Below, one piece after another: positions 7,930 to 35,975 of a stretch of DNA of 64,000 bases (positions are counted from its first letter, which is position 1; each line of letters begins with the position of its first letter). A model generated the notes under the pieces. That model was given only the letters and a program-made list of their open reading frames with translations. It was not told where the DNA came from and made no database searches. The DNA is from Antedon mediterranea (taxonomy: Eukaryota; Echinodermata; Crinoidea; Comatulida; Antedonidae), in the NCBI RefSeq assembly GCF_964355755.1, contig NC_092679.1, positions 11,336,932-11,400,931 of the forward strand, written 5' to 3'. The position numbers and the translations under genes were made by a program.

Positions 7930-9128
7930 TTAAGATGACATGCATGCTGGCTTCTTCATGAAACGACTATACCAGTGCGTTTTATATTTCTTTCTTGGGG
8001 CGAAAATTGCCAACATGGCTTCAGCATAAACATCCTTTAGTCCTTTTTGTGTTAATGCAGAGCATTCGACATAACATTCAGCACCAATCTTTTCGGCTAA
8101 TTTATCCGCTGCTTCCACTGATACCATTTTCTTGTTTTGACGTTGGAGACGAGACTTTGTAAATCCGTCGTCACGAAGATCACTTTGGGTTCCGACTAAT
8201 AAAAATGGAGTGTCCGGGTTATTTTCTTTAAGTTCTTTTACCCACAAGTCTCTGACATTTTCAAATGAATCTGGCTCCACAACCGAGAAGCAAATAAGAA
8301 ATATGTCAGTCATTGGATATGCTAAGATGCGAAGCCGATCGTATTCTTCTTGGCCAGCCGTATCAAATAAACCAAGATTATATATAACGTTATTAATTGA
8401 TACATTCACTGGAAAATAAAATAATTAAGAAAGATGAGCATTGAATTGGAAAAACAGAGAGGACATTTAACAATATCATGTACCATAGCCTACACTCTTG
8501 CATGGTTGTACAAAATAATTAACAAGGCCTATGCCGTGATCGCCGCAACAAACAATTCACTGTACTCATCCCCATACTTCCCTCTATTTTTACTTATACC
8601 ATTTTAAGGACACATTTAATAATGATAATACACCAGTAATATTTTTAATTTTTAGTTACCGTTGGCGAGTTTCATAGGAAAGAAAGAGAGAAGGATCGTG
8701 GCCTCCTCTTCCCTCATCTCGAGCTTGATGTAATCAATTAAGTGGTCTAATCATATAATAATTTAAAACAAGTTCGATAAATGACAGTCGCATGTATGTA
8801 GGCCTATAATTTACGGCTCCATTCGTATTTAAGGAAGGACCGTATAAAAAGGTTTACTATAGTATTTATTAGTAGTTTAATCAGGAAGGTATAAAAATAA
8901 TAATATTTTTATACCTCCCTGGTTTAATGGCCTTCCTGCTTCTCAATACAATATAATATATGCCTAGATATGTATAAAATATGAATCTTAAAACTTTTAC
9001 TTACCCGAGTAATTATCGAAAACAGTGGGTATATGGTCCCGTGGAAATCTGTTTGTAGCATAGCTTATTAACATACACGTTTTTCCGACTCCGCCATCGC
9101 CTATAACAACACATTTCAGATTATTCAT
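7930..9128 (-). CDS. Rho-family small GTPase, Cdc42/Rac-like (two exons)
   Basis: A membrane-anchored GTP/GDP switch, expected to act on actin and polarity. Exons are 9128-9005 and 8408-7930; the donor is GTAAGT and the acceptor CCAG. The join restores TVFDNYS-VNVSINN and gives 200 aa. Visible: P-loop GDGGVGKT (10-17), switch I Thr35, DTAGQE with Gln61, G4 TQSD, a Rho-type insert after DLRDD, G5 SAL, a basic tail and the CaaX box CMSS. A terminal Ser suggests farnesylation rather than geranylgeranylation, by the usual CaaX rule. The start is set at MNNLKCVV by family alignment; the frame stays open upstream to 9326, but that stretch is unlike the family. Both GTPase-competence residues (Gly12, Gln61) are kept, so it is probably active. 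Subfamily assignment (Cdc42, TC10 or a divergent paralogue) is uncertain. Confidence 0.93.
8887..8916. repeat. Perfect 12-bp-stem hairpin in the Rho gene intron
   Basis: AGGTATAAAAAT and its exact reverse complement are separated by 6 nt, inside the single intron of the Rho gene. It is probably a tiny foldback insertion or an AT cruciform. No function can be assigned. Confidence 0.6.
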
Positions 9129-10948
9129 ATCAAAAAGTAAGAAGTTAATATTTCTTCTTTCTGCTTCACTATTTCCCGCCTGTTGCTCTGTACAGTCTAT
9201 ATCCAAGTGACAGCAAATACCACACGAACAATTGATGACATCATTCAAAATACTGTATTGGGAAAAGTAACCGCGAAAGAACGTACACTCATCTGTGTTC
9301 ATTGAAACATGACATTTGTTCACCAATCACAGCTTGTCATATTTTGAGTGAGATTAATATTTTATTTAGTGTACCGGATATTATTGTTTCCGATGGTTTT
9401 ACACAACAATTATGAAGGAAGCGTGAGTGTATATTATTATCATTGTATTGCACAATCCCACAACACCTTCGCACACACGAATTCAATTTGGTTACTACAG
9501 TACTTATATTGAAATCATAAGGAAGAGCACGCCACCTTATTACAATCTTTTTTCGGTATTTTAGTAGAACTACGTCCCAAAACCGCATACCGAATACAAA
9601 GGAGGTATCTGAAGGACCTATGTTATGCAATAAGGTAAACAAAGATTAAATAAACCACAAAGTCAATAATACTTAACAAAGGAACGTAGGGGTACTCTTG
9701 AAAGTAGGCCTACATAATTGATTAGACTTGCCCAAGTCTGTATTCATTGTCTTTTTTATTTATTTATTTGTTTTTATTTCGATTTTTGTCTGAAAATAAG
9801 TCTGTATTCATTGTCTTTTTTTATTTATTTGTTTTTATTTAGATTTTTGTCTGGAGTATCCAAACACAAGTAGTATACGTATGAAACGCCATATGTGCCA
9901 AAATATTTATCTCTTTACTAATATTAAAACAAAACTCTGTCTGGAACCCAGACTAATTATTTATAAGCAAAAGAGCAACCATTACAAAATTACAATTCAA
10001 TATTGTATTTTGAAAACAATATTATATTAAATTAAATCTTACAATGTTTTGAGTTGGCATTTCATTAATTACTATATAGCCTATAGGGTCTACAAATACG
10101 ATTTTAAACCAATTTGTTAATGTGTTTGTTATTGTTACTACATTTTTTCCCATCGAACTTAAATAACTGTTACTTTTGTATAAGCATATTTGAAATTTGA
10201 TTTGATTATAAATTTGGATATACAGTATTGTATTGTTAATTAACCGTCGAGTATAGATAACATGTTTGAATTGAAGTGAAGTGAATAGAACAACCAAAAA
10301 ACAAATTGTTTTTCTGAAAAAGTGATCAATAAATCATGAAACTCAATTATGTTTATAGGCCTACATAAATATTTTCATTTTACTTAATCTTTCAACTACA
10401 TTGCTGTATTAAATAAATTGAAAAGAAGATGGATGATGACGTTTTGGGATTGGGTGAAAGAAAGTTTTAAAATTTATGTTATTAAAAGTTTTTTTAAGCC
10501 CAGCGCACACTAGGCTGAGCCAACTGCTGACACGAGCAAACAAATTTGCTGCAAACTGTGATCGCATTCTATCGGACGCACACTAAACGCCTTCAGTACG
10601 CGATTACAGTTAACTGAGAGGCATACACAATTTTCGACCCGAAAAAACATTTTTGGCAATCATGAAATATTGATATGTCAAAGAAAAAGGAAATTCAAAT
10701 TAATTAAACAAAATTGAAAGAGATTTAGAAAAAAAGTATAGTACTGTATAGTGTAGTGCAAATTTGTTTTCTCTGCAATTTACTCATCCGAATAAATAAG
10801 ATAAACACTGTATATAACAAAAAACATTTCACAAATTCCAAATCATAAATTTGATCCTCATATATTTATTCTGAATACTGTATTACTTTTGTTTAAATCT
10901 AGTTTATATTTTTTTTTAAATGACAATTATAATGTACACAATTTAAGG
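9129..10948. other. Gene-free stretch upstream of the Rho gene
   Basis: The 5' UTR or promoter of the Rho gene presumably lies here. A ~60-bp T-rich direct repeat (GTCTGTATTCATTGTCTTTTT) occurs at about 9737 and 9799. No other gene is seen. Confidence 0.4.
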
Positions 10949-12963: not shown

Positions 12964-12969
12964 TTTATT
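12964..12969 (-). terminator. Candidate polyadenylation signal for the cpRAS gene
   Basis: AATAAA lies on the minus strand 39 nt past the TAG stop at 13010-13008. It is a plausible poly(A) hexamer by position and sequence. No cleavage site can be shown without transcripts. Confidence 0.5.
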
Positions 12970-13007: not shown

Positions 13008-16000
13008 CTAGGAATTGTAACCATAATACTGCTCTTGTACATCTTTAGACACCTTCTTCTTTTTCAGATAGGCAAGCTTGCCTTTGCTGCTAACCATACT
13101 CTCCAAAGTCGGCTTGGCACTGCTGTATACTGGGCTCTTTGTCTGTGAAGAAACAATGCTAACATAGTAACTATTTTTTATTTATTTATTTTGTAGCCAA
13201 TGTTCGATATTTTCAGTGACTAGGGGCTAATTTGATCAGGGAAGTATAAAATTAATTTTACTTTTACCAGATTCGATTGATATCTCTATCTCAAATATAA
13301 TTATAACACTTTTAATAGTTCGTAATATATAACATCTAAATAAATTCCTGTCATTTGATTGGACGATTGTTGGTCACATGGCGTGCAATAGTACACATTT
13401 TTCATTTTTTGGTAAATGAAAAAAAAAATCTGTTCGTTTGGAAATTTTTGTAAAGACCATTACTTTAGAAATCCAATGATGATACAATGTGTATCATGAC
13501 GAAAGTACATTTCAGACCAAATAAAAGCATTTAAATTAGCTTTAGATCATTTTTATGATTTTGATTAATTAATGGGAAAATCTCTACAAGACATGAAAAT
13601 GGAATGGAAATAACAGAATTAGCCTAGGTCAGTGCCAGTTGCCTGTCAAAGTTTCGTAATGCATTTAGAAATAGCCTAAAAAAACATATTTACCTGAGGT
13701 CCAGCATAAACAGCTGAAAAATTTGCAAAGCTTCCTACAGCTTCATAATCTTTGGTCTTGGCACAAGTTCGCCGAAACAAAGCATTTGTCTTTTGTCTTC
13801 AATCAAAACACATAACCATAATGATTAATTTTTCAAAAAATAAATAAAATGAGAAATATGTCATTAATAAGTAAATATTTTTCCCATCATATAAAACATT
13901 TCTGAGGTGGTTGATCTAATTTATAGAAGAACATTTAATGTGATTACTATCTATCACATTAAATATATATAAAGATAATTGTAGTTATTATTATTACCGT
14001 ATATACATTTGTAGCTACAAGTAAAACAATCTTACATGTTTATGCGTGCTAGCGTGGAATTTTTATCACTGGATAACTTGGAAGATATCTGTAATGCTGC
14101 GGTACCAGCAACAGTAATATCCACATTCTAAAAAATGAAGTAGAAATATGAATGGAGTTGGAATCATTAAAGGCCAGGTGTGGGCAAAAAATTTCTATTG
14201 ATCATACATTCCAATAATTATCGATCTATAGTTTCCCCTATGTTTCATAATTTTTTGGGATTTTATTTGTGTTACACAAGCTTGTTTAAAATAAGCACTT
14301 TCTTATCAGTGGGGGGATAGTTCAAATTACACAGTAAAATCTCTATTCTTTTGTACACAAATTTTGTAAATAGAGAGGCATTTTAAAAAGCTATGAAAAA
14401 TAAACGGTGTGGTAAAAAGTGTTATCAGATGACTAAATATAGGTAATATAACTTGAATTTTACATTTCTGGTATTTTTATTCAACTTTAGATTTTTATTT
14501 TCATGCTATAGCCAAAATTATCCACCGTATACCCACTATCTTTTTTCACCTTCTAGGGAGTCACCAGACATGTTTTATATTAGGTTAAATTACCTAACTA
14601 CTACTTCCTGGTTTTTATGGCAGAATTTTGCCAAATTTTGTATTTGACCAAAATTCATGTTTTTTTGTCTTGATTTCTGTTACAAATATTTGATTTATGT
14701 ACAATTAACCAGAGATTATATTTAAAATTCATGCCTGTACCTGAGCTTTAATCTAGGGCTATAACCAAAGAAGAAAATAAAAACATTAATAGTTCTGTTC
14801 ACATTACATATTCTGTTCTGATATTATTAACAATTGAAATATTATATATTAAAAAAAAAATGTTTCAGAACTATCATTCAAGATAAAATGAGAATATAAA
14901 AAGTATTATATGCCAATTAATGACAGGAAATACAAAACAATGCGTATCCGGATATTCACCCCCTGGACATTTACCCCCGGACAACTACCCCCCGGACAAC
15001 CACCACCTGGACCACTACCCCCTTAGGACAACTACCCCTTTAGGACAACTACCCCCCGGACAACTACCCCCTTAGGACAACAACCCCCTTAGGACAACTA
15101 CCCCCTGGACAATTACCCCCTAGGAACAATTACCCCCTAGGAACAATTACCACCCGGACAATTACCACCCAGAAAACTATCCCTTTAGAACACCCTAACC
15201 ACCCAGACCATTCAACAACCTGACTCTGCAACTATTAATTAATAACTATATTTTAATTCGTTACTTTGACGAATTACTATTCATTATTGTAAACAAGAGT
15301 AAAAGATTGAACATAAATATAGCCTGGTGGTATAAACTGAAGATTGTCACACATGATCATAGGATAGTCGAACGTATTATATAGTACTCCATGTATTTAC
15401 TGTAAAGACTGGGTTCGCTAATAATAATAATAATTTTTGCGTCAGGAAAATGCTTCGATAACCACTGGTCTTAAAAGAATTAATTTTTGTCTCAAATTTG
15501 TCATATATGTATTTTTGTACACTTGAAGAATAATATCACTTTTGATATTTGACCTCAATGTTCACTCACCGAATAAACGTCGATCTTTAAATAAATTCCC
15601 CTCAAATAAACGGTGACCATGTCACTCCCATGAAACATCATATGGAATAATCGGCGTCTATTTCCATTAGATTATACCCCCTCCCATTGAATAAACAACT
15701 TTCTTCCAATAAATGTCCACCTAAAAACCACCTAAACAATAAACAGCCCAGGCCGTTTTTTCAATAAATACGGTACTTTAAATCTAGCACATCTAGGGTC
15801 TAGCGTGCTGTTAAACAGAATAATCGGTTAAAAACGGGTGTTTCGAAACTAGAGACCCGAGACCAGAGACCCAATACGAAAAGGGAGACCTAAATATACG
15901 AAAAGGGAGACCCACGTACGAAAAGGGAGACCCCACTATACGAAAAGGGAGACCCCACTATACGAAAAGGGAGACCCTAATATACGAAAAGGGAGACCTA

Positions 16001-19000
16001 AATATACGAAAAGGGAGACCAAATATACGAAAAGGGAGACCAAATATACGAAAAGGGAGACCCAAATATACGAAATGGGAGACCTAAATATACGAAAAGG
16101 GAGACCCACTATAAGAAAAGGGAGACCCCACTATACGAAAAGAGAGACCACACTATACGAAAAGGGAGACCCTAATATACGAAAAGGGAGACCCAAATAT
16201 AGGTCTCCCTTTTCGTATTGGGTCTTGTGTCAGGTCTCTGGTCTCGGGTCTCTAGTTTCGAAACACCCGTTAAAAACAGATGATTTCATTTTTACAGAAA
16301 CCGGTCCTATATATTTGTCTACTTTTGGATTGGGGGGGGGGGGGGGGGGGGGGGGGGGTAGTTGACCGGGGGGTAGTTGACCGGGGGGTAGTTATCCTAA
16401 GGGGGTAGTTGTCCTAAGGGGGTGGTTGTCCGGGGGGTAGTTGTCCGGGGGGTTGTTATCCTAAGGGGGTAGTTGTCCTAAGGGGGTAGTTGTCCGGGGG
16501 GTAGTTGTCCGGGGGGTAGTTGTCCTAAGGGGGTAGTTGTCCGGGTGGTAAACATCCGGGGGATAACTGTCTAGGGGGTAGGTGTCCTAGAACCAAAACA
16601 ATGAGCACTATTGAACATTTTTGATCTTTCTTTTATGTCACAGATCAGATTGGAGATCACACCCACAGTCTACCTGAGAAAGCGCAAGCAGCCTTTGTGA
16701 AACATAGTTCTTGTACTTTAATTGGATACACCAAAGAACATCACATTTAAATTAATAATTTTAATTGTGAAAGAATACATTTTATCCCATAAATTTGGAA
16801 TATTATGAATTGACATTATTGAAGAATATTTTTAATGGGATGTATTGTACTACTGTAGCATCATTTGCATTTCATTATTAAATACAATAAATGTTACCTC
16901 TTCAAATTCTTTAGTACTTTTGGTGACTCCACGTTCGTCACTGATAACACGTAGCATCTTTCTTCCATCTTTTTTTGTGTATTTTATTTGAGTCTAATAT
17001 CATAAAAGCAATTTTGTTAAAAGTTATGTTTTGATTTATTCTTTCTGTCTTCATTGTAGGTTTCACATGGAAGGCTTAACACAGTGGCCGTATTCACCAA
17101 TCACACTTAACTGAGATATTTCCCTTAAATCCTAAGAATTTCCCTTAAATCAAGAAAATATTAAGGGTTTCACTTAAGTGGTATTCACAAAGGGGTTAAG
17201 GTTAAGGGAAACCCTTAACTTGGTCTATTTTCCCTTTAACTTTTAAGGGACCTCTGAGGTTTTCTCTTCAGCCTCCCCCCGTCCCCCAACCCCTTACTCT
17301 TGTTTAAATATGCAAATTAGTTTTAGAGAGGAAAGTGATTGGATCATAGGGGAATTAAATTCTCTGTGATTGGACAATGGGACAACTCATGAATATTTAT
17401 GATTATTTTTACCCTTAAGTTTTACCCTTAAATTAAGTGTTTTCCTTAGGTAAGTGAATCCCTTAACTCATTTGTGAATACCCCTTAAGTGTTTCCCTTT
17501 GTTAATGGAATTTTTAAATTTTAAGGGTAAGTATTTCCCTTATATTAGCCTAAGTGAGATTGGTGAATACGGCCACTGCAATTTAGAAGTAAAATTTTAA
17601 GACAATTTTTATCTTACATTTTCTCCATTTGTTCTGTTACAGTGCGTTCAAGAACATGGAACACCATTCGAAAAGAGAAGGGGATTGTCTGGGGCCTACT
17701 GATCTCGGTAGGCACTTCACTACTGGCTTCTGTGGGTCGTGGGTATAGACCCTAATCTAATGTTTTGTTCATTTTAGCTTGGGGATGATTATATAACATT
17801 TACATTCATTATGTGTTTCTAATGCAGTTGTTTAAAACTTAATTTCCAAAAATGATAAATTAAGAAAAACATTTTTGTCTATTGAAAGAGTGAACCAATA
17901 GCTCAGATGATGATTTTACCTGAAATGGTAACTTGGTCAAGTTAAGATCATTCTTTTGCCTGAAACTGAATGTCAGGGTACTCTTGCTTGTTACACAGCC
18001 TAGTGTTTGCTGGATCTTGCTTGTACCCTATAAATATAATAAATCAAAGAAAGAATTATTTTGATTAAAAAAAACTACGGTATTGTGTTTTAGAATACAG
18101 TATTAGGCACTTTTCTTTCTGATAAAAACGTGGCCATTCTTCCACAAAATATTAGGGACTTTCAGATTTGCACATCCACTTTAAAGATGACTGAGCAAAG
18201 TGCATTGTGTAAGAAATTCGAGGCTTAATGTTCTAATACGCATATTTCTTCTTCAATATCGAAACCAAATAAGTATGTTAATGCAACTATGCACGCTGCC
18301 TTATAAATAAATAGGATGATATCATACAGTATGTCGAAATTAATTACTTCTTCTGCTCCTTAGCTAATAAAAAAAACACCCTCCTACTTTTGAGTTAGAC
18401 TGTTCATCAATAAACTCCAGGCAAGGATGAAGGATCATATTGACTTGAACATCAGTTGCTATGATGACATTTTGTGCTATCTCTCTCAGCTGTCTGGTTA
18501 ATTCGGTAGAATGTAAGATATTTGTTTCTCCTCCTGAAATGGCTGCTGCCTCACTAACAACTTCCATTTCATGTTGATTCTCTTTAATTTCTATTCCAAT
18601 GATGGATATTTTAGTCTGTTGCTCATATGCAATGTTTCCAATCTGAAGTTAAAGAGTCAATATTTTAAATAGATTTGAAAACATAAAAAATAGAATCAGG
18701 GTAGAATACATATGCTGAAAAATTTAAGATTTTTAACATAATGCTATTATTATCACAATAAAATGGAGAATGTATAGGACATACCTCATTATAGAATGAT
18801 GTTCTCAAATTAGTTCTTTCCATGCTACCAACTCCAATATTTGGAATTCCATCAGTACAAAGAACAATTTCAGAACCTGGAATCTTGGATACCATACCAA
18901 CACAGATTGCCAAAGCAGGCCCAAGGGCTGTTGAACCTGCAACCTTCAGATTTTCAACAGTAGACTTCAGGGAACTGGCAAATAAAGATTATATTGTCCA

Positions 19001-22000
19001 CATTAAAAATGTATTTTTCTTCAAAACATGAACAATTAATATGAGTAAAAAAATAAAACTTTGAATAGACTATTTTGTAGTTTTAATAAATTTATCCACT
19101 TTCAGAAAAAATGTATGATTTGCTTAGAAAAAAACAGTTAAATTAACCAGAAATGCATTGACTATTTCTTTTTTTTAAACTATGGGTCAGATAAATACTG
19201 TTTCTTTTATTTACAACAAATTATCTTTTATTTACAACAAATTATCTTTTAAGGGTGATCTTTAATAAGGATGTATTGTACTGGAGGATGGCAAGAATGC
19301 ACAAAGTACACATACTGAAAAGCCATACACACATTATCATGTCAAACAAATACAGTCATTAAACACAATTAACCCAGTTTATCATTACATATTAATAATA
19401 CAATACAAATCAATATTATCATCAAAACACAATAATTGGAAAGTATATTATTGTATATTTTAAGCATACTCTGAATATGCAGCAGATACAAATAGTAAAC
19501 AAAATGCCAAACCGAACATTTTTTATTGTTTCATTACCTCAAGGAATGGTCAATTTCTTTAATATCGGTCATCAAACCCTTTCCCAGATTCAGAAGTTGT
19601 TGTACATTTACTCGCTCAAGATTACGTTGAGTGGTACTTGTGTGAGGATTTGTGGCATCACCATAAATGATTACAGTGTTGTTGAAGGCTACCAAACTAA
19701 CACGCTTTTTAGGATTTTCCAATTGCAAACGCTCAAGTTGCCTGTCAGAAAAACAGTACATAAATATATCAAGAGCAGGCAGATACCACGATCACAAAAA
19801 AGTGTGATATACAGTAATATGTGAGTGGTAGTCAAATTTCTTATAAATACAAACTCGCTCATGACCTGATTGGCTCAGATTAGGAGCGTCTAACCACGAA
19901 CATGGCTAAAATCATTGACAATAATTTCTGTGATATTGAATACATTTTTTTTCTTCCATTTCCAAGATCAACAAATACCCATGAAATGTGAAGCTTTAAT
20001 TTTGGAAGACATTACTTGTGGAGAAAGAAAACATGATCTTTCCTACCTTACAATAGCAATCCGCATACAATCAATACGGTTAACAGATACTTGTCGTTCA
20101 CTACCAGACTTTACTTCATTCCACAATCCTACAACACAAACCATCAAACTTACTAAATAATATAAGATGTCATCATATTGGCCACAACGAGCCATTTACA
20201 TACCATGGGTATTGCTACAACATTTATACAGTGAGATATTGTCATTTGGTTGGTTGGTTTACATTTTGATTTACATCAATCATACAATACAAAAAAAAAG
20301 CTGGTAATCAATGAATCTAAAGAGATCTTACAAACTTGCAATTAAATATGTGAACATAATTATAAACAAATGATTTTTGGCAGTGTTTAGTGTTTTGATT
20401 GATCAGCCAGTTTGGTTGAAGCTTAACAAATTTATTTAGTTAGGGTAAAAAAGTACACAGAGAAACATTTTTTAACAAAAGAATGACTTGCCATGATTCA
20501 TCATTTTCACTTCAAACAAAATTATGGTAAAATTCAATGTAAGGCAACAAAATAGGAAAAAAAATTTTTTTTTTAAATTATTTGTGGAATGTTTATTATG
20601 GAATTTACAGTATTTTTTTTAAAGATGTAATTGTTTTACCTTGAAGATCAGGCATTGTAGTCTGTGATAGCATAGACGTGCTGATATCAATACAGTAAAT
20701 AACAACACCTTGATTACTTTCAACTGAGGTGGCATTGTCAGAGACACTGCTGGCAAGGTGTGGTGATGCTTCTAGCAGAAAATCAACTGAATTTTCTTTT
20801 GAAATCTAAAATAAATTATATAAATTATATACACCATTAAATAAATACAGTAGGCCTATCCACAATATTGTTCATGGAACTATTTTCAGAGAGGGAAAAA
20901 TGAATGTCACATGACATTCAGTAGTTTTTAATTAACTGGACATTACTACAAAGGCATTATAATAATAAATGAAAACTATGAGACTAGAAGTGCATATACT
21001 CTAGAGTCAGAGAGTGCCTACAGTATAATTTTCCTATATAACAAAATTGTGGGCTCGGGACTGTTCACAGAAAAAAAACCAAACAAAAACCTTTTAGGTA
21101 GAGGTAATAAAAATGTGTAAAATACCTCTTCAACATCCATACCGATATCTTTATTCTCACTTGAACAGAATTCACTGATAGAATAAAAGAAAGACAAATA
21201 TTTTACAATTTACATTTGAAACAACATTAAATTTACATACTGTAGTTCCATTGATACATATTATTATTAGTTTTTTTTTCATCCCATTGGGATGGCCACT
21301 CTTGTGCTTGCCATAACAAAGTGATTCAACTGGTAGGGTTGTTAGCCTAATGCAGTTATAAACTTCAGAACACCAGGGTATCTTTCTTGGAGGTGCACTG
21401 GAAGTGCACACAAGCCAGACATGTACACTGAACCTCATGTACCATAGGAATAATGGCTCAGGAGTGCCTTGAAAGTGCACCGATATTATGATTGCAGTTT
21501 GGATTACCCCTGCCTTTACTGCACTTTAGTCAACTTCTCATACAAACAATATTCTAATAATACTGTTAATAACTGTATGAAATCTTAAAAACACAAAATC
21601 GGGTAATTAAAACACACAAAAAGTGGTTGATGGTTAAATAATTTCAAATATAAAAGTAGTTATTACCATTTCCAAGTTGTGGTTTCATCTGCTTTTTGAA
21701 GCTGTGATAAATGTGATAACACAACATTACATTTAATACAATGCATTGGCTCTCCAGCCATGATAGTAGGTTCTTCTTCCAATGTACTCAGTGATAACAC
21801 CACAACATTAACATTCCTGTCTGAAGATTTCATTGGCTGCAAATCTATTTCAAGAAGATTTAATAGAAAAAGAAATTTAAACAATATTAACTCCAAATAG
21901 AGAGACAGAACACACAAAATTAGAAGTTTCGATATATTTGATCATGACTCATTTTGATGTCAAAGACTAATTCCTGTAAACACTTAATGGACTAGAAAAA

Positions 22001-25000
22001 TCCAGGCAAATACCAAAATATTTATGTTAATAGTCTGTAAGTGTAAGAATGTATAGTTTTTGTTTTGTTAAAGGCCCACCATTACTAAAATGATAACTAT
22101 CTGCAATGATGAGATAAATGTGCATTTTTCCTTCATAAAATAAATAGACTAGTTTTCATCCCAGAACTATGATAACCGCATGCTGCCTTTGATTAAAATA
22201 ATGTTTTCACAAGCCCGATCAAATGACATCATTATTAGAATTATTTCAATTTTATTGTTCTTATTGATCATGGCATCATTTGATTGGATTTTTATTATTA
22301 TTTTTATCAAAGACTTATGCATTAGTGGTTATTTTGTAGTTTTAGGATTAAAAGTGTCTAATTTCTTCGGTTTTATGCAAGAAAAATGTATGTTTATCTA
22401 TTTATCGTCATTCGTTATCGTTCTTAGTATAAACAGGCATTTAAATTAACTGAATCAATATAGTGAATTTTATATCATTTTGATTTATTCAAAGCAATAC
22501 AACTGATACTGCTTACCAATCCTATGTTTCCCGAAGGCTGAAATTTTATTTAAAGGTAGTTTATTAATGAATCAAAACAACAAAATAGTATTTTCTCTCA
22601 GGGCATTTCTTAATTAATAATAATAGACTGCTAATTCTTAAAAAGAGGTACTAAATTAAATATCAGACCACATGCATCAAAACACAACTGCGCTGCAATG
22701 ATCGGAGTAATAATGTTTATGGTGCAATGAGAGCCTGCTTATGAATTATATAAGAATGAACTACTATTAGGCAATGCAAGGTACAACATCACCTATTGTT
22801 TTTCTTAACGTTTTTTTCCTGTATTTTGTGACGGCCTATTCTGTTGAATGGCACATGCTCTCTTCTCAAACATTTAGTCAGGTTAAAAGAGGTATTCCGT
22901 GTGCAATTTGTGGTGAAAGTTGGTAACTTGTCTAAATATCTTTAGTGGGTCAAAATAAACCAGAAAAACGTTGTTTCCCAATCTGTAACCCCGTGGGGGG
23001 TATTTTATGGGCCTTGCTAAAAAAATAGAATATATGTGGATACCATAATTTCACATATGCTGCTACACTGTAAAAAATTATACATTATCACTAAACAGAA
23101 AATGGACACAATTCTGCACTATAAACATATTTACTTCAGGTGATAGGCTAGGATGGCATAGTCAATTTTCTTTGCACTAATACCCCTTTTACACCGCCGA
23201 GCTTATAACAAACCTGTGTCGTGTCCGGATAAATTTCCATTTCACACCTGATTCATTAACCCGGGAATGACACAGGTTTTCGTGTATTTACACTGCAAAA
23301 TACCAACCCGTTTATTGTTCTAGATCATTCGAAATATCGCCCTCTCTTGCACGAAGAGAGACCCTAGTAACGGTCTGCTCATTATACCTCCTACAATTTT
23401 GTTTTATGGCAATACACACACAAATTTAGTCTACTTGTGAAGAGTAATATCTTGAAATAAAAATGAATAATAAATAACCATAAGTTTTATTTATTAAATA
23501 AGCGAAGAAACAAAATCAATCTTATCTTAATTGTATGTAAATTAAATACTATAGTGAGCGAGGATAGTAAACAAACGAGTAAAGATACGCTGAGCGTTTT
23601 ACACCGCAAACATGGGTTCATCCCGGGTGCGTCCCGGGTTGACTTGATGCTGAACACATTCCGCATCACTTATACCCATACCCGGGTAAATCTTTACGTC
23701 GTTTACACCGGCCTACATTTTCGCATTTTTGCGTCCCGGGTACGACTCGGGTTATATAATTCCGGATCAACTCAGCATTTTTACTGGCGGTGTAAAAGGG
23801 GTATAACATGTGCATGTTACGCTTGCCCGTCATTGCACTGACGCATACCACCTCAATGACAAATTTCATGTCTAGTTATTATTTTTATTAAATTATATAT
23901 CTTTGATATTTTATTTGTTTGATGTTTCTTACATTTTTTTCCCTTCTTCTTCTTGCCAACCATTTTGCCTTTGTCACTAGCTGATTTCAACTTGTCCTTA
24001 GGAATGTCCGATACTGTGATCTGCTTACGAAAGCTGTCCTCAATAGTTGGATCATATTCTTCAAGGAAGTTATCACAGGTAAATCGTATTGTAATAGCAG
24101 ATTTGCCAACACCTCCATCACCGAGTACCACCACCTAAACACAATGTTGACAATGTACAGGCCATATTTTAACTTAAAATGTTAGAGAGTAATGACGTAT
24201 GAAATCGCCACAATTTTAATTAAATAAAAGTAATAAAAAATGTTTTAATAAAGTTTATTCTTTCCAATTATGGGGAAGGGTACATGCCATGGACCTCTCT
24301 TTGGATTTTATCTATTAGTTTTTGTGTGTGAGAAGCCATAATTTAGTACCATATTCAATTATTATAAACTAGAAATGTAGCTTGGGTTCGTTTGGAACTA
24401 ATTTGATACACTTAGTCCAGTTCATTATATGAAAAGACAGTTTAAGCACATTATAAATTTGTTATTACTTTGATAATTCTTGTAATCTCATACCTTGTAT
24501 TCAATACTAGTACGTGGTGTTTGACGAATAAGAGTCTTAAAAACTTCTTGAATGTTTTCGCCTGTTTTTGCAGAAGTTTCCAAAAAGGGAAGATTAAATT
24601 GTGCGGCAGCAGCCATTCCTTGCTCATAACTGACTTCTCGATTCTGATCAAGGTCTTTCTTATTTCCACAGAGCACCTAGAAAAAAAATCGTATAAATCT
24701 AAAATTATGCATACATTTTTTATATTACAGATTTGAGTAATGCTTTAATATAATTTATAATTTAAAAATAAAATTTAGATATTAAGTGACATTAGACAAA
24801 ACCTTCTGATGGAAACAAGCAAAGAAAATATCAACAGAACAATCAACTTTACAAACTAAAATACAAGAAACCTGTATGATCCCAAATCAGCAGCAAACTA
24901 CAGCTGTGTAATGAATTACTTTACATACATATTGAATCTAAATTTTGGACCATTCTTATATATTTGAATTCATTTGCATCAGTACAACATTTTATGAAAA

Positions 25001-26574
25001 TGTATTCAATTACGGTACTGCTATACAGTTCACCTTAGCACAGCTGCACAAAGCGTAACCTTTAGATATAAGTAGCCATTATCTGATTCGGTTAAAAACA
25101 ATAATGTACTTACTGCTGGGACAGATTTCGTCTTTCTGATCCTTGTCGTAAACTCATATATTCTTTTTGCATTCTCCAATGAGGCTAACGATGTGACAGA
25201 ATACACAATAAGAAATGCCTGTCCATCTCTCATATACTGTAAAACATGGCAAACAAACGGTTAACACTCTTCCCCCACTTCACCTCTCCACAACTGTTTT
25301 AGATCTGTGACAATTTTCTAATAGAAGCAATTGTTGAGCCCGATAGCTGGATGTAGACCAAAAATTGTATTCTTACAGTACCTACAGTAGTCTGGATATG
25401 AAAATCACATGGCATGTAAACTCTAACCCACACTTCCATATCTTACATTTGTCATATTCGATTGAGACTTTACCGTTGACTACAACTTTTTCATTTTTGA
25501 CCATTGGGATTGTTCTCAATGAAAAAGCTTATGTTGGTAAACGTTTTCAATTCAAAATATTTTCAGTTGAGCACAATTATTTTAGAATTTATCAGTTGAA
25601 CACAAAAAGTAATCAATGAATCTTTATTTTGACCTGCCATGAAATATGCCAAATTTGTATTTATGGCGCAAATGTATTACTTAAATAAAATGTCTACAGT
25701 ATGTAATCGTGTCAATATAATTTCTTATGATGAGCATGATGTCAAAGCACAAATGTTGTTTACCTGATCTCTCAACTTAGAGTACTCTTCTTGTCCTGCT
25801 GTGTCTAAAATATCAAGTAGACAGGTCTGCAAAAAAATAAAACAGCTAAAATGAAAGAATGAACTTCTTTTTGATGCATTTTTTTTAGACAGAAAACAGT
25901 TAATAATATTATATGTTAGCGCTCCCTGTTTGAAAAATCCTCCATCCACACCTATACCTCTGTCAAATCAACTAGCAAAACTCCGAGGACAATCTAGAGT
26001 TTAATGGTAAAATTACTCCAGAGTTCAAACCACAGGGGTTGAACAGCTGAATGTTCTCCGGTGGGTGCACTGTGAAGACACACTGGGACGGTCAATGTGA
26101 AACACTGAAAGGTACCAATTTCATTTAATTTAATTAATTTTTATTTAAATATAAACTCCAGTGTTTTTAGAGAAAAAGGTTCTCTCATATGATCAATCAT
26201 TGCTTTAGTTTATTTAAAAATACAAGACATATAGGATAATAGGAGCGGCATGACATAAATAAAAAATTAGCAGACTTGAAAATTGATTGTTTGAACCTTT
26301 TACAGTTATGAGGTAAAAGAAAGTTTTTATTTTTAGATAGTGAACATAGATTAACAAACAATGATTACAATCAATATTCCCATTAAACACGCATATATAC
26401 TTTTATTCCAATACTTAGTTTAGTGTCACAAAAACAAATTGTTACCTCACAATCATCACCTGCTGCGAATACTTGGTCTATAAGGTGTTCGTCAAGATTT
26501 ATCAGTTCCTCATCTTCTACATCAACTTCATCCCCTTTTTGTGCAACATAGATAAACTTATTTCCAAATTCCAT
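13008..26574 (-). CDS. cpras1: Circularly permuted Ras (cpRAS)-VWA protein, 17 exons, 785 aa
   Basis: Homologue of the cpRAS-VWA family ('circularly permutated Ras protein 1'), known in scattered metazoans and protists; cellular role unknown. Coding exons: 26574-26446, 25826-25764, 25236-25114, 24676-24494, 24134-23933, 21844-21667, 21174-21126, 20805-20640, 20128-20047, 19741-19538, 18974-18785, 18642-18388, 18027-17920, 16993-16898, 14127-14036, 13796-13694, 13142-13008. Every intron is GT-AG, all phases match, and the sum is 2358 nt including TAG. Order: acidic N-terminus (1-43), permuted Ras (about 43-210), Lys-rich linker (227-233), zinc finger (269-296), VWA (about 340-520), beta-rich C-terminal region. 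The start ATG sits in a GCCATGG context just after a possible acceptor (CTAG at 26596), so a 5' UTR exon is likely. The weakest junction is the acceptor at 21844, chosen because it keeps the frame. Confidence 0.93.
13240..13690. repeat. Dispersed repeat shared with 54830-55310
   Basis: The last intron of the cpRAS gene and the first intron of the RNase T2 gene share AAATAAATTCCTGTCATTTG, GTCACATGGCGTGCAATAG and GATTTTGATTAAT..GGGAA in the same order and orientation. This is an old mobile element without a recognisable coding part. Confidence 0.75.
15836..16268. mobile_element. 433-bp MITE with internal minisatellite and 9-bp TSD
   Basis: Ends are GGGTGTTTCGAAACTAGAGA and its complement. The direct repeat GTTAAAAAC occurs immediately outside at 15827-15835 and 16269-16277. 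The interior is about 17 copies of a 19-22-bp unit (TATACGAAAAGGGAGACCC) at 15885-16220. A 9-bp duplication suggests a Mutator-like origin. Confidence 0.85.
16332..16358 (+). repeat. G27 homopolymer
   Basis: Twenty-seven consecutive G residues directly before the GGGGGTAGTTG array. The exact length is prone to sequencing error. Together with the array it has strong G-quadruplex potential on the plus strand. Confidence 0.9.
17082..17578. mobile_element. ~497-bp MITE with CAGTGGCCGTATTCACC ends
   Basis: Perfect inverted ends CAGTGGCCGTATTCACC...GGTGAATACGGCCACTG, continuing as ACTTAA and (A/C)CCTTAA-rich subterminal sequence on both sides. It lies in the intron between cpRAS exons 13 and 14. 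The CAGTGG start resembles hAT, but no 8-bp target duplication is evident. Confidence 0.8.
18388..20805 (-). other. cpras1: Exons 8-12 of cpRAS gene: VWA domain with complete MIDAS
   Basis: A central strand [12 protein letters not shown] carries the MIDAS DxSxS (Asp349, Ser351, Ser353). [10 protein letters not shown] supplies the MIDAS Thr475, and EIVLCTDG supplies Asp501. All metal-coordinating positions are intact, so divalent-metal-dependent ligand binding is plausible. The domain is spread over exons 20805-20640, 20128-20047, 19741-19538, 18974-18785 and 18642-18388, with phases 1, 2, 2, 0, 0 at their ends. No transmembrane segment or signal peptide is seen, so the protein is predicted cytosolic. 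Confidence 0.9.
21126..21844 (-). other. cpras1: Exons 6-7 of cpRAS gene: Sec23/24-type zinc finger
   Basis: Residues 269-296 read C-I-K-C, 20 residues, then W-K-C-E-F-C. The third cysteine is created by splicing TG from exon 6 onto T from exon 7. The WxCxxC half-knuckle resembles the Sec23/Sec24 zinc finger. Exon 7 is only 49 nt; its acceptor (TCTATCAG) and donor (GAGGTATTT) are both clear. This finger connects the permuted Ras domain to the VWA module. Confidence 0.85.
22881..22997 (+). repeat. Dispersed repeat, inverted relative to 27512-27627
   Basis: Shares CCGTGTGCAA.TTGTG.TGAAAGTTGG and GGGTCAAA.TAAACCAGAAAAA with the reverse complement of 27512-27627. The two copies flank the 5' half of the cpRAS gene in opposite orientations. 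Confidence 0.75.
23181..23803. mobile_element. 623-bp Harbinger-type MITE, TAA target duplication
   Basis: Ends TACCCCTTTTACACCGCC and the exact complement GGCGGTGTAAAAGGGGTA, flanked by TAA on both sides (23178-23180, 23804-23806). The interior has GC-rich CCCGGGACG/GTGTAAACG motifs unlike its surroundings. It lies about 130 nt downstream of the donor of cpRAS exon 5. Confidence 0.85.
23933..25826 (-). other. cpras1: Exons 2-5 of cpRAS gene: permuted Ras domain
   Basis: Protein order is [15 protein letters not shown] (G3, Gln at 55), [23 protein letters not shown] (G4, 110-113), ETSAK (G5, 138-142), then [13 protein letters not shown] (G1, 171-178) and [14 protein letters not shown] (G2, Thr at 196). 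Canonical Ras runs G1 to G5; here the chain begins at G3. The old N-terminus (EYK-VVVLG) is fused to the last Ras helix through the short segment RQTPRTSI. Residues equivalent to Ras Gly12, Lys16, Ser17, Thr35, Asp57, Gln61, Asn116, Lys117, Asp119 and Ala146 are all present, so GTP binding and hydrolysis look intact. No CaaX box follows; the switch II and switch I halves lie at opposite ends of the domain. Confidence 0.95.
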
Positions 26575-26595: not shown

Positions 26596-28046
26596 CTAGG
26601 TAGAAATATAATGAATTTAAATGTATATCAAATTTTTTAGCATAAATTTTCAGTGAATTGCACAATGACATGGATAACCAACAAAAGTATAATAATCTGA
26701 ATTATTCATAGTGGGTTGCGTAGTAAATTCGGCAATATACCAGAAGTAGCTCCTACTCTTTGTGCATTTGGACAAAAAAAAGAACAGCAATGGAATGTGT
26801 AGTACCTGTAGTGTGTGTTGTAAATTAATGTAAACCTAAAAAATCACCTCACCTATCTTGTTAAATAGAATGTTCAGGCTTTTAACCAATATTTCTGACT
26901 ATGTCAAGTTCAACTTTATTTGACAGAGGACTAGATCAAAATAGGTATTTTTCTGTGTGTTCTCTCCATTCATTATTTGTTTTATAATGACCAGTCCTAT
27001 AAGTGGGGCTTATGTCGACACAGAACTCAACTAGAATGAACTAATTGTGCAAAAGTGCTTATGTTGATTTTGAAAGCAACTGAAGAGAGTGATCCAGCGA
27101 TACTGGAACTGATTCTAACTATTGATTACCATACCACGCGCACAACACGATTAGTAGTATAGGTAAAGGTATATTCTGGTAAATGAACCATAAGTTTAAC
27201 TCTGGAAACTGAGGAAATTTGGATTAGGCTCTCCATGACAGCCAGCAGTGCAGCACCTACTAGATCAGAAAACGGAGACGATCCCCTGCTCTTTTGTTAA
27301 CATGCACGCACTCACAGGACCAACGGCTTTACATCCCATCCGAAAAGCGATGCAATGCGAGTAAAGTATCTTGCCTAAGAATGCAATCAGTGTGGTACAG
27401 ATAGACTTGAACCCTCACCTATAACATGCTACTGTAGTCTGATATCATTACACCATAAATGTCCATATGAACAAGTATGCATTTGGCCACCATCTTAAGG
27501 TCCAGAAAAGGACCCCCATGGGATTACAGATTGGACAACAATATTTTTCTGGTTTACTTTGACCCACTGAATATATCTAGCCATGTTGCCAACTTTCATC
27601 ACAATTTGCACACGGAACCTGTTTGAACCCGACTATTATTATAGTTTACTGTAGTTTAATATTATGATTTTTGTTCTGTACATCAGTGAGGCCACGGAAT
27701 TTGTTCTGAAATAAAAGTTGATTGTTTGATCGTGGATTTAATTAATTGATTGATAAGGTAAATCAACTACAGAAGGAAAACTATAATAAAAAAAAATTAA
27801 AATATAATCAAAATACATCCTTAAAACAGTGTATTTAATACCAGGTAGGCCCTGCTTTATGATTAATCAAGAATTTTAGACTATATTTTAATTAAAGACA
27901 CCTTCCCTACATTTGTTAGATCTAATTTCAGATCACAAACTATATTTAATGTAAAAATAATACTATATGGTCCTATTGCGATAACTTTTTTCGTCTGTAA
28001 ATGGTTAAAAATGTGAAAAATAAGTAGATAGACCAAAAAATAACTC
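26596..28046. other. Upstream region of the cpRAS gene
   Basis: Contains the SINE at 27200-27465 and the repeat at 27512-27627. No CpG-rich promoter or clear TATA box was found; a 5' UTR exon of the cpRAS gene probably lies here but I could not place it. Confidence 0.4.
27200..27465 (-). mobile_element. Probable tRNA-derived SINE
   Basis: On the minus strand, a tRNA-like head ends in GGTTCAAGTC (B-box-like). It is followed by TTAGGCAAGATACTTTACTC and GCATTGCATCGC, a tail type common in marine invertebrate SINEs. A-box match is weak and no target duplication was found. Confidence 0.45.
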
Positions 28047-30179
28047 CTGGTATTCTTTTTTAACGACATTACTGATCACTTTCCAGTATTCCAAATTCTA
28101 AAAAATTCTCATTCAAATCAAATAAAAAATTTAAAATGTAACAAAAAACATTACTCAAGAAAGATAAACCCAAAAAATATAGCATCTCTAGGGATTAACT
28201 TAATGAACACGAACTGGGACGATGTCTACCAAAATAACTCTGCAAATGAATCCTACAATATTTTTCTCGACAGATTTTCTTCACTATATGATACTCACCT
28301 CCCAAAGACAAGAACTAAAATTAACAAACGTAAACTTTGTAAACCATGGATAACAAAAGGTATAATCAAATCTATAAACACTAGAAATAAATTATATAAA
28401 AAATATATAAAAACACCAAATATGATTAATAAAACCAATTACATTAATACTTACAGAAATAAACTCACACGACTAATAAGAACATCATGTAAGCAACACT
28501 ATACAAATAAGTTTAACGACTATAAAAATAACATTAAAAAAACCTGGAATATAATTAATAACATTCTCTGTAAAAACACCACAAAGACGCTACCTAGTTA
28601 TTTTACAGATAATGGTACAAAAATTACTGACCCATCTCAAATTGCCAATAAATTCAATCGCTATTTTACTGATATTGGACCTAAACTTTCTTCAAAAATT
28701 TCGGCTACTTATGGCAACTTTACTGATTATCTAAGGAATCCCACTCAAAATTCAATTTTCTTCCTACCTACATCTGGTAAAGAGATTCTTGAAATAATTT
28801 CTAATCTAAAAAACAGTAAAAGTGCCAGCCTTGATGATATTGAACCCACGATTATTAAAGAAATTGGACCTTTTATTACCAGACCCCTTACCCACATCTT
28901 TAATCTATCACTAACTAATGGTGTATAAATTTCCATCATCCTTAAAAATCGCCAAAGTAATTCCTATTCATAAAAAAATTGATTCACATTCCTTTGAAAA
29001 CTACCGTCCAATCTCAATTTTGCCTTGCTTTTCTAAAATACTTGAACGCCTTATACAAGACTTTACAACTTTCTTTCTTCACATAAATCTTTTCATGATA
29101 ACCAATATTGCTTCAGACCAAAACATTCTACCGATCTTGCAATCCTTGACATTCAAAGTAAAATCTCTAACGCCTTATCTAAAAACCACCATACTATTAG
29201 CTTATTTTTGGACTTGTCTAAAGCATTTGACACTATTAACCACACAATTCTTTTAACTAAACTAAGTCACTATGGTATCAGCGGAACTCCTCTATCTCTA
29301 CTTTCTAACTATCTTCAAAATAGACAACAAATCACCTCTTTCGGCTCCTACTCCTCAGAAGCTCTTCCCATAACCTGCGGTGTGCCCAAAGGATCAATTC
29401 TTGGTCCTCTACTTTTTCTCATCTATGTCAACGACATTATCAACGCTTCCAACTCTTTTGAATACGTCCTGTTTGCCGACGACACAAACATTTTTTCCTC
29501 CCATCCTGACTACAACACCTTAACCAGAATTTTTAATAAGGAAATAAAACATATCTCACTGGCTTAAACTTAATAGACTCTCACTAAATATAAACAAAAC
29601 TGAATATATACACTTTTCTTCAAATAGAACACGCAATGACAATCAAAACACAATCCATATAGAAAACACTCCTATCAAAAGGGTTACTTATTCTCAGTTC
29701 TTTGGTGTAACTATAGATAATAACTTCAACTGGAAAACCCATATAACAAACCTAATAAAATTTCAAAAAACATCGGTGTCTTTAAACTCCAAAAACGGGC
29801 TATTCGCATTTGTACCAATTCTCACTATATAGCCCACGCAAAGTCCCTTTTCTTTAAACTTAATACCCTAAACATCTTCGATATTAACAAATTACAAATC
29901 GCCACACTTATGCACAGATATTCAAACAATCAACTTCCAAATATAATAATATACAAACATTTCTTCATCAAAAATAATGAATTTCACAACTATAATAAAA
30001 GAAATGCCAACAATTACGCCACAATAAATTTAACCCATAACACAATCCGAAATTCTATCAAATACCATGGTCCTCTAGTATGGAATAATTTAAGTCAATC
30101 CTTACTAAATACTAATAACTTAAATACATTCAAATCCAATTATAAACAATTCCTTTTATCACAATACAGATCGTATTAA
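28047..30179 (+). pseudogene. LINE reverse transcriptase remnant, frameshifted
   Basis: Open pieces run 28203-28928, 28918-29256, 29208-29567 and about 29560-30179. Recognisable RT motifs: YRPISILPCFSKILERL, LDLSKAFDTINH, CGVPKGSILGPLLFLIYVND and FADDT. At least four frame changes are needed: one in the T-run near 28060, one near 28925, one near 29215 and one near 29565. The FADDT box itself is intact. The copy cannot make a full protein but is not very old, since few in-frame stops occur inside each piece. Confidence 0.88.
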
Positions 30180-33640: not shown

Positions 33641-33755
33641 TCATTGTTATCACAATCATTCGTGAGGTCTTCTATACTGAAGCCATGTTTTAGAGGACCT
33701 CACTAATGATTGTGATAACAATGATGTCGAATAACTAGAGAATAAAAGCATTGTG
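33610..33755. repeat. Snapback junction 2 in Ty3/Gypsy element
   Basis: Arms 33610-33669 and 33696-33755 match at 59 of 60 positions as reverse complements, with a 26-nt loop. The lower arm includes 31 bp of the 3' LTR. The upper arm is its inverted copy, fused directly to the end of the RNase H fragment. Confidence 0.92.
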
Positions 33756-34526
33756 TTTATACTTGATTGTCAGATCATATCCTTGTAGTCTCATTAGTAG
33801 TCTTTGTAGTCTTGGTGGTGCACACATTAGATTTTTTAGTTGGATCATCTCTAACGGTTTGTGGTCTGATTCCACAATGAATGAGTTTCCATACACATAT
33901 GTGTGGAACTTCTCTACTGCGTATACTACCGCCAGTAGTTCTCTTTCAATGTTCGCATATCTTTGTTCCGCTTCTGTTAATGCCTTTGATGTAAACGCAA
34001 CAACTTTTTCGTCTTGTATGAGTGCTGCTCCCACTCCAATCAGGGATGCATCCACTTGTAGTTTCAACTTTTTGTTAGGTTGGAAATAGGTCAGTGTTGT
34101 CTGGTTACATATTGTTGACTTTATCTCTTCGAATGCTTTTTGTTGTGAGCCATTCCATTCAAATACATTATCTTTTTTCAGAAGTTCTCGGAGGGGTGCT
34201 GTTTTGTCTGACAGCTTGGGACAGAAGGGACTCATATACGTGGCGATGCCTAGGAAACTTTGTAACTCTTTAACATTCGTTGGTGGTTTTATTTTGCTGA
34301 TGGCTTCAATGCGCTTTGGGTCAGCATGTACTCCATCTTTATCATATATCATACCAAAGAAATTTATTTGCGGTCGCTTTATTTCACATTTCTCTGCATT
34401 GAATACAAGCCCATATTCTCTAGCGGTTTCCATCAGGTCCATTAAGTTTCGATCATGTTCTTCTTCTGTTTTCCCAAATACAGCAACGTCATCTGCGATG
34501 CCTGTGGCTCCGATGCATTTCTCCAA
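33735..34526 (-). pseudogene. Ty3/Gypsy RT C-terminus and RNase H fragment
   Basis: Starts just before the RT catalytic box (GIADDVAVFG). It continues through thumb (FFGMIYDKDGVHADPKRI) and RNase H (LQVDASLIGVGAALIQ, FTSKALTEAEQRYANIEREL, VESDHKPLE). It ends in YDLTIKYKH, where the frame enters the second inverted repeat. Integrase is absent. Confidence 0.88.
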
Positions 34527-34726
34527 TACGGTATTTGATCCATCTTATGTTGAAAAACGTCTTGGCTGACATTCAGTCCAAATGGTAATCTTAGGAATCT
34601 GAATCTTCCAAACCCTGGAGTGTTAAATGTGGTAAGATAACTGGATTCCTAAGATTACCATTTGGACTGAATGTCAGCCAAGACGTTTTTCAACATAAGA
34701 TGGATCAAATATTGGAGAAATGCATC
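34512..34726. repeat. Snapback junction 1 in Ty3/Gypsy element
   Basis: Arms 34512-34598 and 34645-34726 are reverse complements except for a 5-nt indel (ACGGT). The 46-nt loop plus the lower arm are contiguous sense RT sequence (TFNTPGFGRFRFLRLPFG). The upper arm is an inverted copy joined directly to gag-protease. Confidence 0.92.
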
Positions 34727-35739
34727 TCTCTAATATATATATGTAATATATTACCCTCTGCACCTGTATCTACTTTTACTTTCAGGAAAGTTGGTTTGTT
34801 ACGGTTTATTTCAATTTTGACATTTGTGAACACTTCTGTGTCACCATCTTTAGCGTTTATCTGGCTTATTTTAATTGCTTCAAATGTAATATTAGATTCA
34901 TCTTCACTGTCGCAATCGCTATCATTGCTTTTGTTTATACCATGCACGTTTCTCTTACTTCTGTTAGGTGCATTTATATATTTGCCCTTTTGTTTGTCAT
35001 TACGTTTTGACCTACATGCTCTACTAAAATGATTTTTCCTACCACAATTATTGCAGGACATGCCAAAAGCTGGACATTTACCATATTCATGTGATCTAGT
35101 GCATCTTGAGCATGGTTTACTTTTATCTCTATTTTTGGTTCTATCATGTTTATAATTATTAGACATACCTAATTGATCTACCGCTACTTGGTGATCAGTT
35201 TTGAGCTCTTTCCCTAAGTTTCTCGACGCTTCTGATGCCTTACATATTTTCATGCACTTATCTAAATTTAAATCATCTTCTCTAAGCAATCGTTCACGCA
35301 ATTGATTGTCCAATAGTCCACAAACAATTCTATCCCTGATGAGGGATTCCTCAATTTCTCCAAACTCACATGTCTTGCTCTTGTTCTTTAGGTCGGTCAC
35401 ATATTGGTCTATCTTCTCACCTGGTATCTGGTTTCGTGAAAAGAAAGTGTGTCGTTCAAATGTAATGTTTTTCTTGGGGTTGCAATATTCCTCAACTTTG
35501 TGCATAACTGTGTTTAATCTCATCTTCTCAGCTTCATTTTCAAATTTAAATGCGTTATATACATCTAAGCCTTGTTGCCCAATAGTATGGAGTAGTAATG
35601 ACGTTTGCGTTTCACTTGGTTTTCGTGACATTCCACTGGCAATGTTATATAGTTCAAATCTCTGTTTGAATCTCTTCCAATTCTCGGATATGTTGCCTGT
35701 CGATATATTTATTGGTTCTGGCTGATTTAGGTTCGCCAT
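34705..35739 (-). pseudogene. Ty3/Gypsy gag with truncated protease
   Basis: Starts at MANLNQPEPINISTG (the frame is open 17 codons upstream). The capsid-like region is followed by two zinc knuckles: CSRC...H...C (variant spacing) and CNNCGRKNHFSRAC (canonical CCHC). The protease active site VDTGAEG is near residue 325. A few residues later the frame runs into the inverted RT copy and stops, so the protease is cut off. Confidence 0.85.
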
Positions 35740-35975
35740 GATCAATATTAATTTTTTAATATTGTCAGTTGTTGTATACAGTGGTAACAAAATGTGTATG
35801 GGCTATTTTTTGCCTTCTGCTATCCGAATACAAAATCCAATTCAGTTCTCTCCGCACGTCACGTGTGTACTCTCAACAACACGTTTTACTATTCTATTCG
35901 TGCGGCGGCGTGTACGCTAGCCTATTTATTCTTCTAGCCTAGTATAGCTTATCGATTGACTTTATTATATGTTTC

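Follow-up and report, generated by a model that had tools for sequence, protein, structure and literature searches.

The locus raises the question of whether exons that carry the motifs of a Ras domain in permuted order belong to one intact gene and, if they do, to what kind of protein half the permuted domain is joined and what the two halves may do together. The window, that is, the whole stretch of 64,000 nucleotides from the crinoid Antedon mediterranea analyzed here, corresponds to positions 11336932-11400931 of contig C10 (G000:C10:11336932-11400931), and our genome scans covered the 354-Mb, 18-contig assembly.

Structure and integrity of the gene

Rebuilt from the DNA, the circularly permuted Ras (cpRAS) gene lies on the minus strand between 26574 and 13008 and consists of 17 exons and 16 introns. 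Its CDS of 2358 nt translates into a protein of 785 aa, and its sole stop codon is the terminal one. All 16 introns have GT-AG ends, and the phases are consistent across all junctions. Exons, junctions, phases, and the lengths of CDS and protein, all given in the original prediction, were reproduced independently. The sequence around the start codon is GCCATGG, an in-frame stop precedes it at 26598, and an AATAAA polyadenylation signal is located on the same strand at 12964-12969, 39 bases past the stop codon.

The first five exons carry the N-terminus and the Ras domain. Exon 1 (26446-26574) contains the start codon and an acidic N-terminal segment of 43 residues (pI 4.05). Exon 2 (25764-25826) encodes strand 3 and the G3 motif DTAGQEE (DTAGQ at 25805-25791), with the equivalent of HRAS Gln61 present, and exon 3 (25114-25236) the region from G3 to G4. 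Exon 4 (24494-24676) is the joint exon: it holds G4 (NKKD, 24664-24653) and G5 (ETSAK, 24580-24566), and ends with the last helix, the residues PRTSI and then the EYK of strand 1 (24502-24494). Exon 5 (23933-24134) provides the remainder of strand 1, G1 (GDGGVGKS, 24122-24099), G2 (YDPTIEDSF, 24056-24030) and a polybasic stretch of 23 residues (24002-23934; pI 10.4) with 11 K/R and 2 D/E.

In the intron after exon 5, a frame-keeping microexon of 21 nt (22537-22517) was considered and not kept in the 17-exon model. When scored with leave-one-out matrices from the 16 real cpRAS sites, its donor reached 3.0 (real donors 3.2-10.3) and its acceptor -2.0 (real acceptors -0.5 to 11.7). It is thus a possible but unsupported exon, its donor and acceptor both scoring slightly below those of the real sites. 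Its inclusion would leave the downstream acceptor and phase of this intron unchanged at the start of the C-terminal module. The phmmer/PDB search of the Ras part used a model of 792 aa that includes the microexon; the Pfam families are identical for the 792-aa and 785-aa models.

Judged from the integrity of the sequence over 17 exons, selection for function may reasonably be regarded as likely. It is highly improbable that the gene is an unexpressed or decaying copy that merely looks intact, as an early pseudogene would. This was the only cpRAS gene found in the genome, hence there is no sister copy for comparison; but base-shuffled versions of the CDS contained 56 stops on average, against none internal in the 2358 nt of the real one, the 16 introns have proper ends, every G motif and the metal-binding MIDAS are retained, and both start context and polyadenylation signal are present.

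The original prediction would have fallen if the exon with G1 and G2 belonged to a separate gene, and this is contradicted by two observations. Strand 1 is divided between exon 4 (up to EYK) and exon 5, so that the G1 exon requires exon 4. Moreover, in the part of the gene past exon 5 (13008-23932), tblastn with three Ras pieces gave no match at E <= 1, while the control over the whole gene recovered exons 2-5; since no Ras piece follows exon 5, a separate gene is very unlikely. The genome-wide Ras scan missed exons 2 and 3 of the cpRAS gene itself, and is therefore uninformative on a later G3 piece. A canonical small GTPase, presumably of the Rho type, is indeed encoded on the same strand 3.9 kb further downstream, but the chance that two adjoining genes or a local rearrangement were misread as one, with the G1-G2 exon coming from another Ras gene, is practically nil: strand 1 itself spans exons 4 and 5, the region after exon 5 is empty of Ras pieces, the neighbour is complete in itself, with two exons and normal motif order, and the order G3-G4-G5-G1-G2 defines a published family known from several species.

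We also recorded the surroundings of the gene. The neighbouring GTPase gene (7930-9128, minus strand; exons 9128-9005 and 8408-7930) has 603 nt and encodes 200 aa; its second-exon frame matches Pfam Ras at E = 2.6e-28, and the terminal CMSS fits a CaaX box. On the other side, starting 1.5 kb ahead of the cpRAS start codon, are pieces that resemble a non-LTR retrotransposon (28044-30179, plus strand); the frame 29046-29567 matches a reverse transcriptase (RVT_1, E = 1.8e-23), and no Pfam family matched the frame 28044-28928 at E <= 0.01. Farther upstream, an LTR-type retroelement (33735-35802, minus strand) comprises a frame resembling Gag, whose zinc-knuckle match is weak and below the cut-off (E = 0.0085), and a reverse transcriptase/RNase H frame. 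A plus-strand frame at 2288-2899 matches a GIY-YIG endonuclease just over the cut-off (E = 9e-5) and, we presume, possibly derives from a Penelope-like element. Within the cpRAS gene, the intron between exons 14 and 15 contains short-unit tandem repeats, GGTCTCCCTTTTCGTATA-like and CCCCCGGACAACTA-like, together with a long C run, identified by eye (15853-16365 and ~14970-15220 / 16340-16620).

The permuted Ras domain and its family

Along the chain, the Ras motifs appear in the order G3-G4-G5-G1-G2. Pfam Ras matched the 785-aa protein in two stretches (E = 1.9e-49). With phmmer, residues 41-158 aligned to residues 51-168 of Ras and residues 163-209 to residues 6-52, both in one canonical chain; these swapped halves, together with the positions of the motifs, bear out the order originally predicted. 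Among the PDB matches of the protein, the best 60 of 805 are all Ras-named, nearly all of them KRas or HRas. The joint is inside exon 4, where G4, G5 and the last helix run into PRTSI and EYK, and the predicted passage from the last helix into EYKVVVLG is indeed found, both sitting in the chain of exons 4 and 5. The domain is opened between strands 2 and 3: it begins with ETCLLDIL (strand 3) and finishes with FRKQITV (strand 2). The permutation point had been described as the start of the chain; this is correct for the domain but not for the chain, in which 42 residues, acidic overall, stand before it.

The canonical nucleotide-contact and catalytic motifs (GDGGVGKS, YDPTIED, DTAGQ, NKKD and ETSAK) have survived, G1 to G5 all being intact, as had been claimed. 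By HRAS numbering, we take the glycines of GDGGVGKS to be residues 12 and 13, the threonine of YDPTIED to be Thr35 and the glutamine of DTAGQ to be Gln61. The protein thus has a Ras-family G domain with TIE in G2 (YDPTIEDSF), and its effector loop YDPTIEDS is identical in the aligned canonical Ras.

We conclude that the gene almost certainly encodes an intact cpRAS-VWA (CPRas1-type) protein. It adds one protein to the cpRAS-VWA family that Elias & Novotny 2008 described (PMC2430557), and so belongs to a kind already known. The cpRAS domain was reported there from lancelet, sea urchin, sponge, choanoflagellate, Capsaspora, Acanthamoeba, Naegleria and Dictyostelium, and as of 2008 no function had been assigned to the proteins (PMC2430557). 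The predicted assignment to this family holds in motif order, N-terminus, linker, zinc finger and VWA half. The motif order, the TIE-type G2 and the linker are those of the family (PMC2430557). The N-terminus is without homology, with a length of 42 residues here and 40-66 in the family, and Pfam gave no separate match in these 42 residues at E <= 1. A four-Cys zinc finger precedes the VWA domain, formed here by CIKC and CEFC; these cysteines are kept in a paralog described below, and the Pfam match to zf-Sec23_Sec24 is below the cut-off (E = 0.020). The C-terminal half is of the VWA/Sec23-trunk kind, here with VWA_2 below the cut-off (E = 2.5e-4). The protein differs from the family in its length, 785 aa against the 840-970 aa reported, a range that is descriptive and not defining.

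The main text of PMC2430557 contains none of the words sandwich, COPII, MIDAS, intron and polybasic; the polybasic linker, the complete MIDAS, the beta-sandwich match and the exon structure are described here and are absent from that main text. Among the literature matches listed, later work on cpRAS consisted of citations of PMC2430557 or of CPRas in a gene list only, and no description of a beta-sandwich of the Sec23/24 kind, or of the boundary intron common to two genes (see below), was found. A passage of PMC8195603 concerns a permuted transglutaminase.

GTPases of the YRG/YlqF type also have a permuted GTPase domain. Their motif order is G4-G5-G1-G2-G3, however, whereas cpRAS has G3 first, and the break in their domain lies between strand 3 and helix 2, not between strands 2 and 3 (PMC2430557); they are not of the Ras family. 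A Pfam match of our protein to RsgA_GTPase (E = 4.1e-7, residues 86-181) covers just the G4-G5-G1 stretch common to both orders.

Looking for relatives outside eukaryotes, we found none of the module or of the permuted domain in viral contigs, and none of the module in prokaryotic genomes. The permuted query returned 70 prokaryotic Ras-like loci, 51 of them with Asgard names. Both halves were held in one frame at 65 loci, which could be tested (five were left unjudged), and all 74 frames in these were canonical, none having the permuted order; as a control, the same two profiles detect the permuted order in the cpRAS protein. The scan reached sequences that have its two peptide patterns, and is a sample, not proof of absence. 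Within this reach, the result agrees with the published view of cpRAS as eukaryotic (PMC2430557). Ras-like GTPases of canonical order were also seen in a few bacterial records (L033, L061, L080 and L083; Anaerolineae, Endozoicomonas, Cytophagales and Planctomycetota) within this set, which is otherwise mainly archaeal. In the crinoid genome, the canonical small-GTPase loci considered for comparison are ones that we take to be Rap, M-Ras, Ral, Di-Ras and Rab. No K/H/N-Ras gene was recognised among the genome matches listed, which are uninformative in this respect. No introns common to the cpRAS gene and canonical GTPases were seen in a comparison with one Ras-like and one Rab-like gene, made from exon edges in tblastn.

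The C-terminal module and its paralog

The rest of the chain is a module that begins in exon 6 (21667-21844), with the first zinc-finger pair CIKC at 21737-21726. The second pair, CEFC, is in exon 7 (21126-21174), its first codon being split between exons 6 and 7. Exon 8 (20640-20805) contains the MIDAS motif DISTS of the vWA domain (20688-20674), exons 9 (20047-20128) and 10 (19538-19741) continue the vWA/trunk, and exon 11 (18785-18974) contributes to it the MIDAS threonine in GSTAL (18937-18923) and aspartate in CTDG (18859-18848). Exon 12 (18388-18642) presumably holds the end of the vWA/trunk and the beginning of the next region. The beta-sandwich follows, its first part in exon 13 (17920-18027; Sec23_BS, E = 6.5e-6, residues 610-662) and its second in exon 14 (16898-16993). 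Exon 15 (14036-14127) encodes a segment after the beta-sandwich in which the paralog is similar. Exon 16 (13694-13796) precedes exon 17 (13008-13142), which carries the C-terminal tail (pI 9.5) with the basic stretch LKKKKVSK and the stop codon. The protein ends in YGYNS, and a CaaX box is absent from its C-terminus.

On the 785-aa protein, Pfam placed zf-Sec23_Sec24, VWA_2 and Sec23_BS (E = 0.020, 2.5e-4 and 6.5e-6) in the order known from Sec23/24, all three under the Pfam curated cut-offs. Sec23_trunk had no Pfam match in this protein at E <= 1. The helical and gelsolin domains, the part in which the arginine finger of Sec23 is placed, were detected at E <= 1 neither in the cpRAS protein nor in the paralog. 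A single-sequence search of the PDB reached Sec24 only at E = 0.02. A two-sequence profile of the module, made from the cpRAS protein and the paralog, was matched at E <= 1 by nine sequences of the PDB. Sec24/Sec23 occupy the first seven places, with four forms of yeast Sec24 (E = 0.0022-0.0036) followed by three entries at 0.24-0.6; the GTP-binding protein CIN4 accounts for the remaining two (E = 0.94). The best single stretch had an independent E of 0.065.

Ordinary Sec23/24 loci are found elsewhere in the genome, two on contig C6 and one on C10, as located by scans with Sec23_trunk and Sec23_BS; since these loci are separate, the cpRAS-VWA protein does not result from mis-modelling of a coat-subunit gene. 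It counts against a link with Sec23/24 that the cpRAS gene was not among the matches of the two scans, and that the paralog appeared with Sec23_BS only, below the cut-off (E = 0.1). Taken by its sequence, the module (zinc finger, MIDAS-bearing vWA/trunk and beta-sandwich) is very probably related to Sec23/24, a point on which the original prediction is silent. It resembles Sec23/Sec24, the COPII inner coat, in the order of zinc finger, vWA/trunk and beta-sandwich, with weak matches here, below the cut-offs. On the other hand, the helical and gelsolin domains are not detected in the cpRAS protein, which we do not class as a Sec23/24 member, and its GTPase is fused in cis and is of the Ras type rather than the Sar1/Arf type.

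The paralog, a VWA gene without cpRAS, is located at C2:9.781-9.798 Mb, where we assembled its exons by eye. Its module is 36% identical to that of the cpRAS protein and has the same zinc finger and MIDAS pattern. Pfam matches are over the cut-offs for Sec23_trunk (E = 7.1e-9) and VWA_2 (E = 5e-6), and below them for Sec23_BS (E = 9.8e-6) and zf-Sec23_Sec24 (E = 8.2e-4). Around it, no Ras pieces were found by tblastn in C2:9776500-9806200 (29.7 kb, reaching ~7.9 kb upstream of the first module exon), the two Ras matches there being at chance level (E = 0.36 and 0.44). VWA-only relatives without cpRAS were described in Dictyostelium, Lottia, Capitella, Strongylocentrotus and others (PMC2430557).

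The two genes can be compared at the boundary of the module. In the cpRAS gene, the module starts with exon 6, behind a phase-1 intron one codon ahead of LQPMK; in the paralog, it starts with an exon that has a phase-1 acceptor one codon ahead of IKPMK. Compared by eye, this boundary intron is the sole exact coincidence among the comparable introns of the two genes: a second pair, before NVDITV in one and NLNVAV in the other, is one base off, and most of the remaining introns differ. Being a comparison of just two genes, this is no more than suggestive of the cpRAS part having been gained or lost at the boundary intron. Repeated short units were seen in the introns of the paralog too (L001 ~8400-9470, L021 ~1400-1830).

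A possible switch within one chain

Passages of PMC9769691 describe Sec23/24 with a layout of five domains and their recruitment by Sar1 via the trunk of Sec23, and PMC10709328 describes Sec23 as an arginine-finger GAP, with the finger inserted into Sar1. The control of Sec23 by Sar1-GTP in COPII may have a parallel in the cpRAS-VWA protein, here in cis. From its start, the chain consists of an acidic N-terminal segment, the Ras G domain with its opening at strands 2/3, a polybasic linker and the Sec23/24-like module; the G domain would retain GTP binding and hydrolysis. The cut falls in the inter-switch hairpin, so that switch II leads to the N-terminus and switch I, by way of strand 2, to the linker and on to the module; as the opening lies between the two switches, each of them would be connected to one end of the remaining protein. 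The nucleotide state could then set the position of the Sec23/24-like platform, or its binding of ligands, all in a single chain. The polybasic stretches may hold the protein at an acidic membrane; they could equally be nuclear signals.

We infer GTP cycling, membrane binding and the coupling of the two halves from the features above. That the Ras switch drives its own membrane-facing, Sec23/24-like platform is the mechanism that we prefer, tentatively, while holding it to be less likely than not. A coat-like reading has against it that the G domain is Ras-type, that helical and gelsolin domains are undetected and that the matches of the module in the cpRAS protein are weak. The best explanation taken as a whole, in which an intact cpRAS-VWA protein has a module related to Sec23/24 and a switch mechanism in cis, has in our judgement even chances.

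The same protein could also work without any coat-like role, its vWA domain being an ordinary intracellular scaffold that binds ligands through a metal ion, and its G domain being regulated or read by outside partners of the Ras type. This chief alternative is a real possibility, if short of an even one. The MIDAS is complete in both the cpRAS protein and the paralog (DxSxS, T and D; in the cpRAS protein DISTS, the threonine of GSTAL and the aspartate of CTDG), whereas yeast Sec24 has a glycine in the last MIDAS Asp column (aligned stretch VVSGTLPN). An effector loop that is the same as in the aligned canonical Ras would suit such outside partners, and the lack of detectable gelsolin and helical domains, with Sec23_trunk unlisted for the cpRAS protein, points in the same direction. 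A generic vWA domain, however, does not predict the Sec23/24 order of the domains, nor that the best PDB matches of the module profile should be Sec24 and Sec23.

Going further than the switch in cis, cpRAS-VWA proteins might form a third lineage of COPII-like coats or adaptors, with GTPase and Sec23/24-type platform united in a single chain, in which the Ras cut between its switches would be a mechanical hinge that directly moves the platform on membranes, and in which the fusion, or its undoing, would have occurred at the phase-1 intron; we regard this as improbable.

An intact gene, a module-only paralog and ordinary Sec23/24 loci in one genome make it testable whether the cpRAS-VWA protein is a relative of the COPII inner coat that is driven by Ras within a single chain, and cpRAS offers a naturally occurring switch protein whose opening lies exactly between the two switches.
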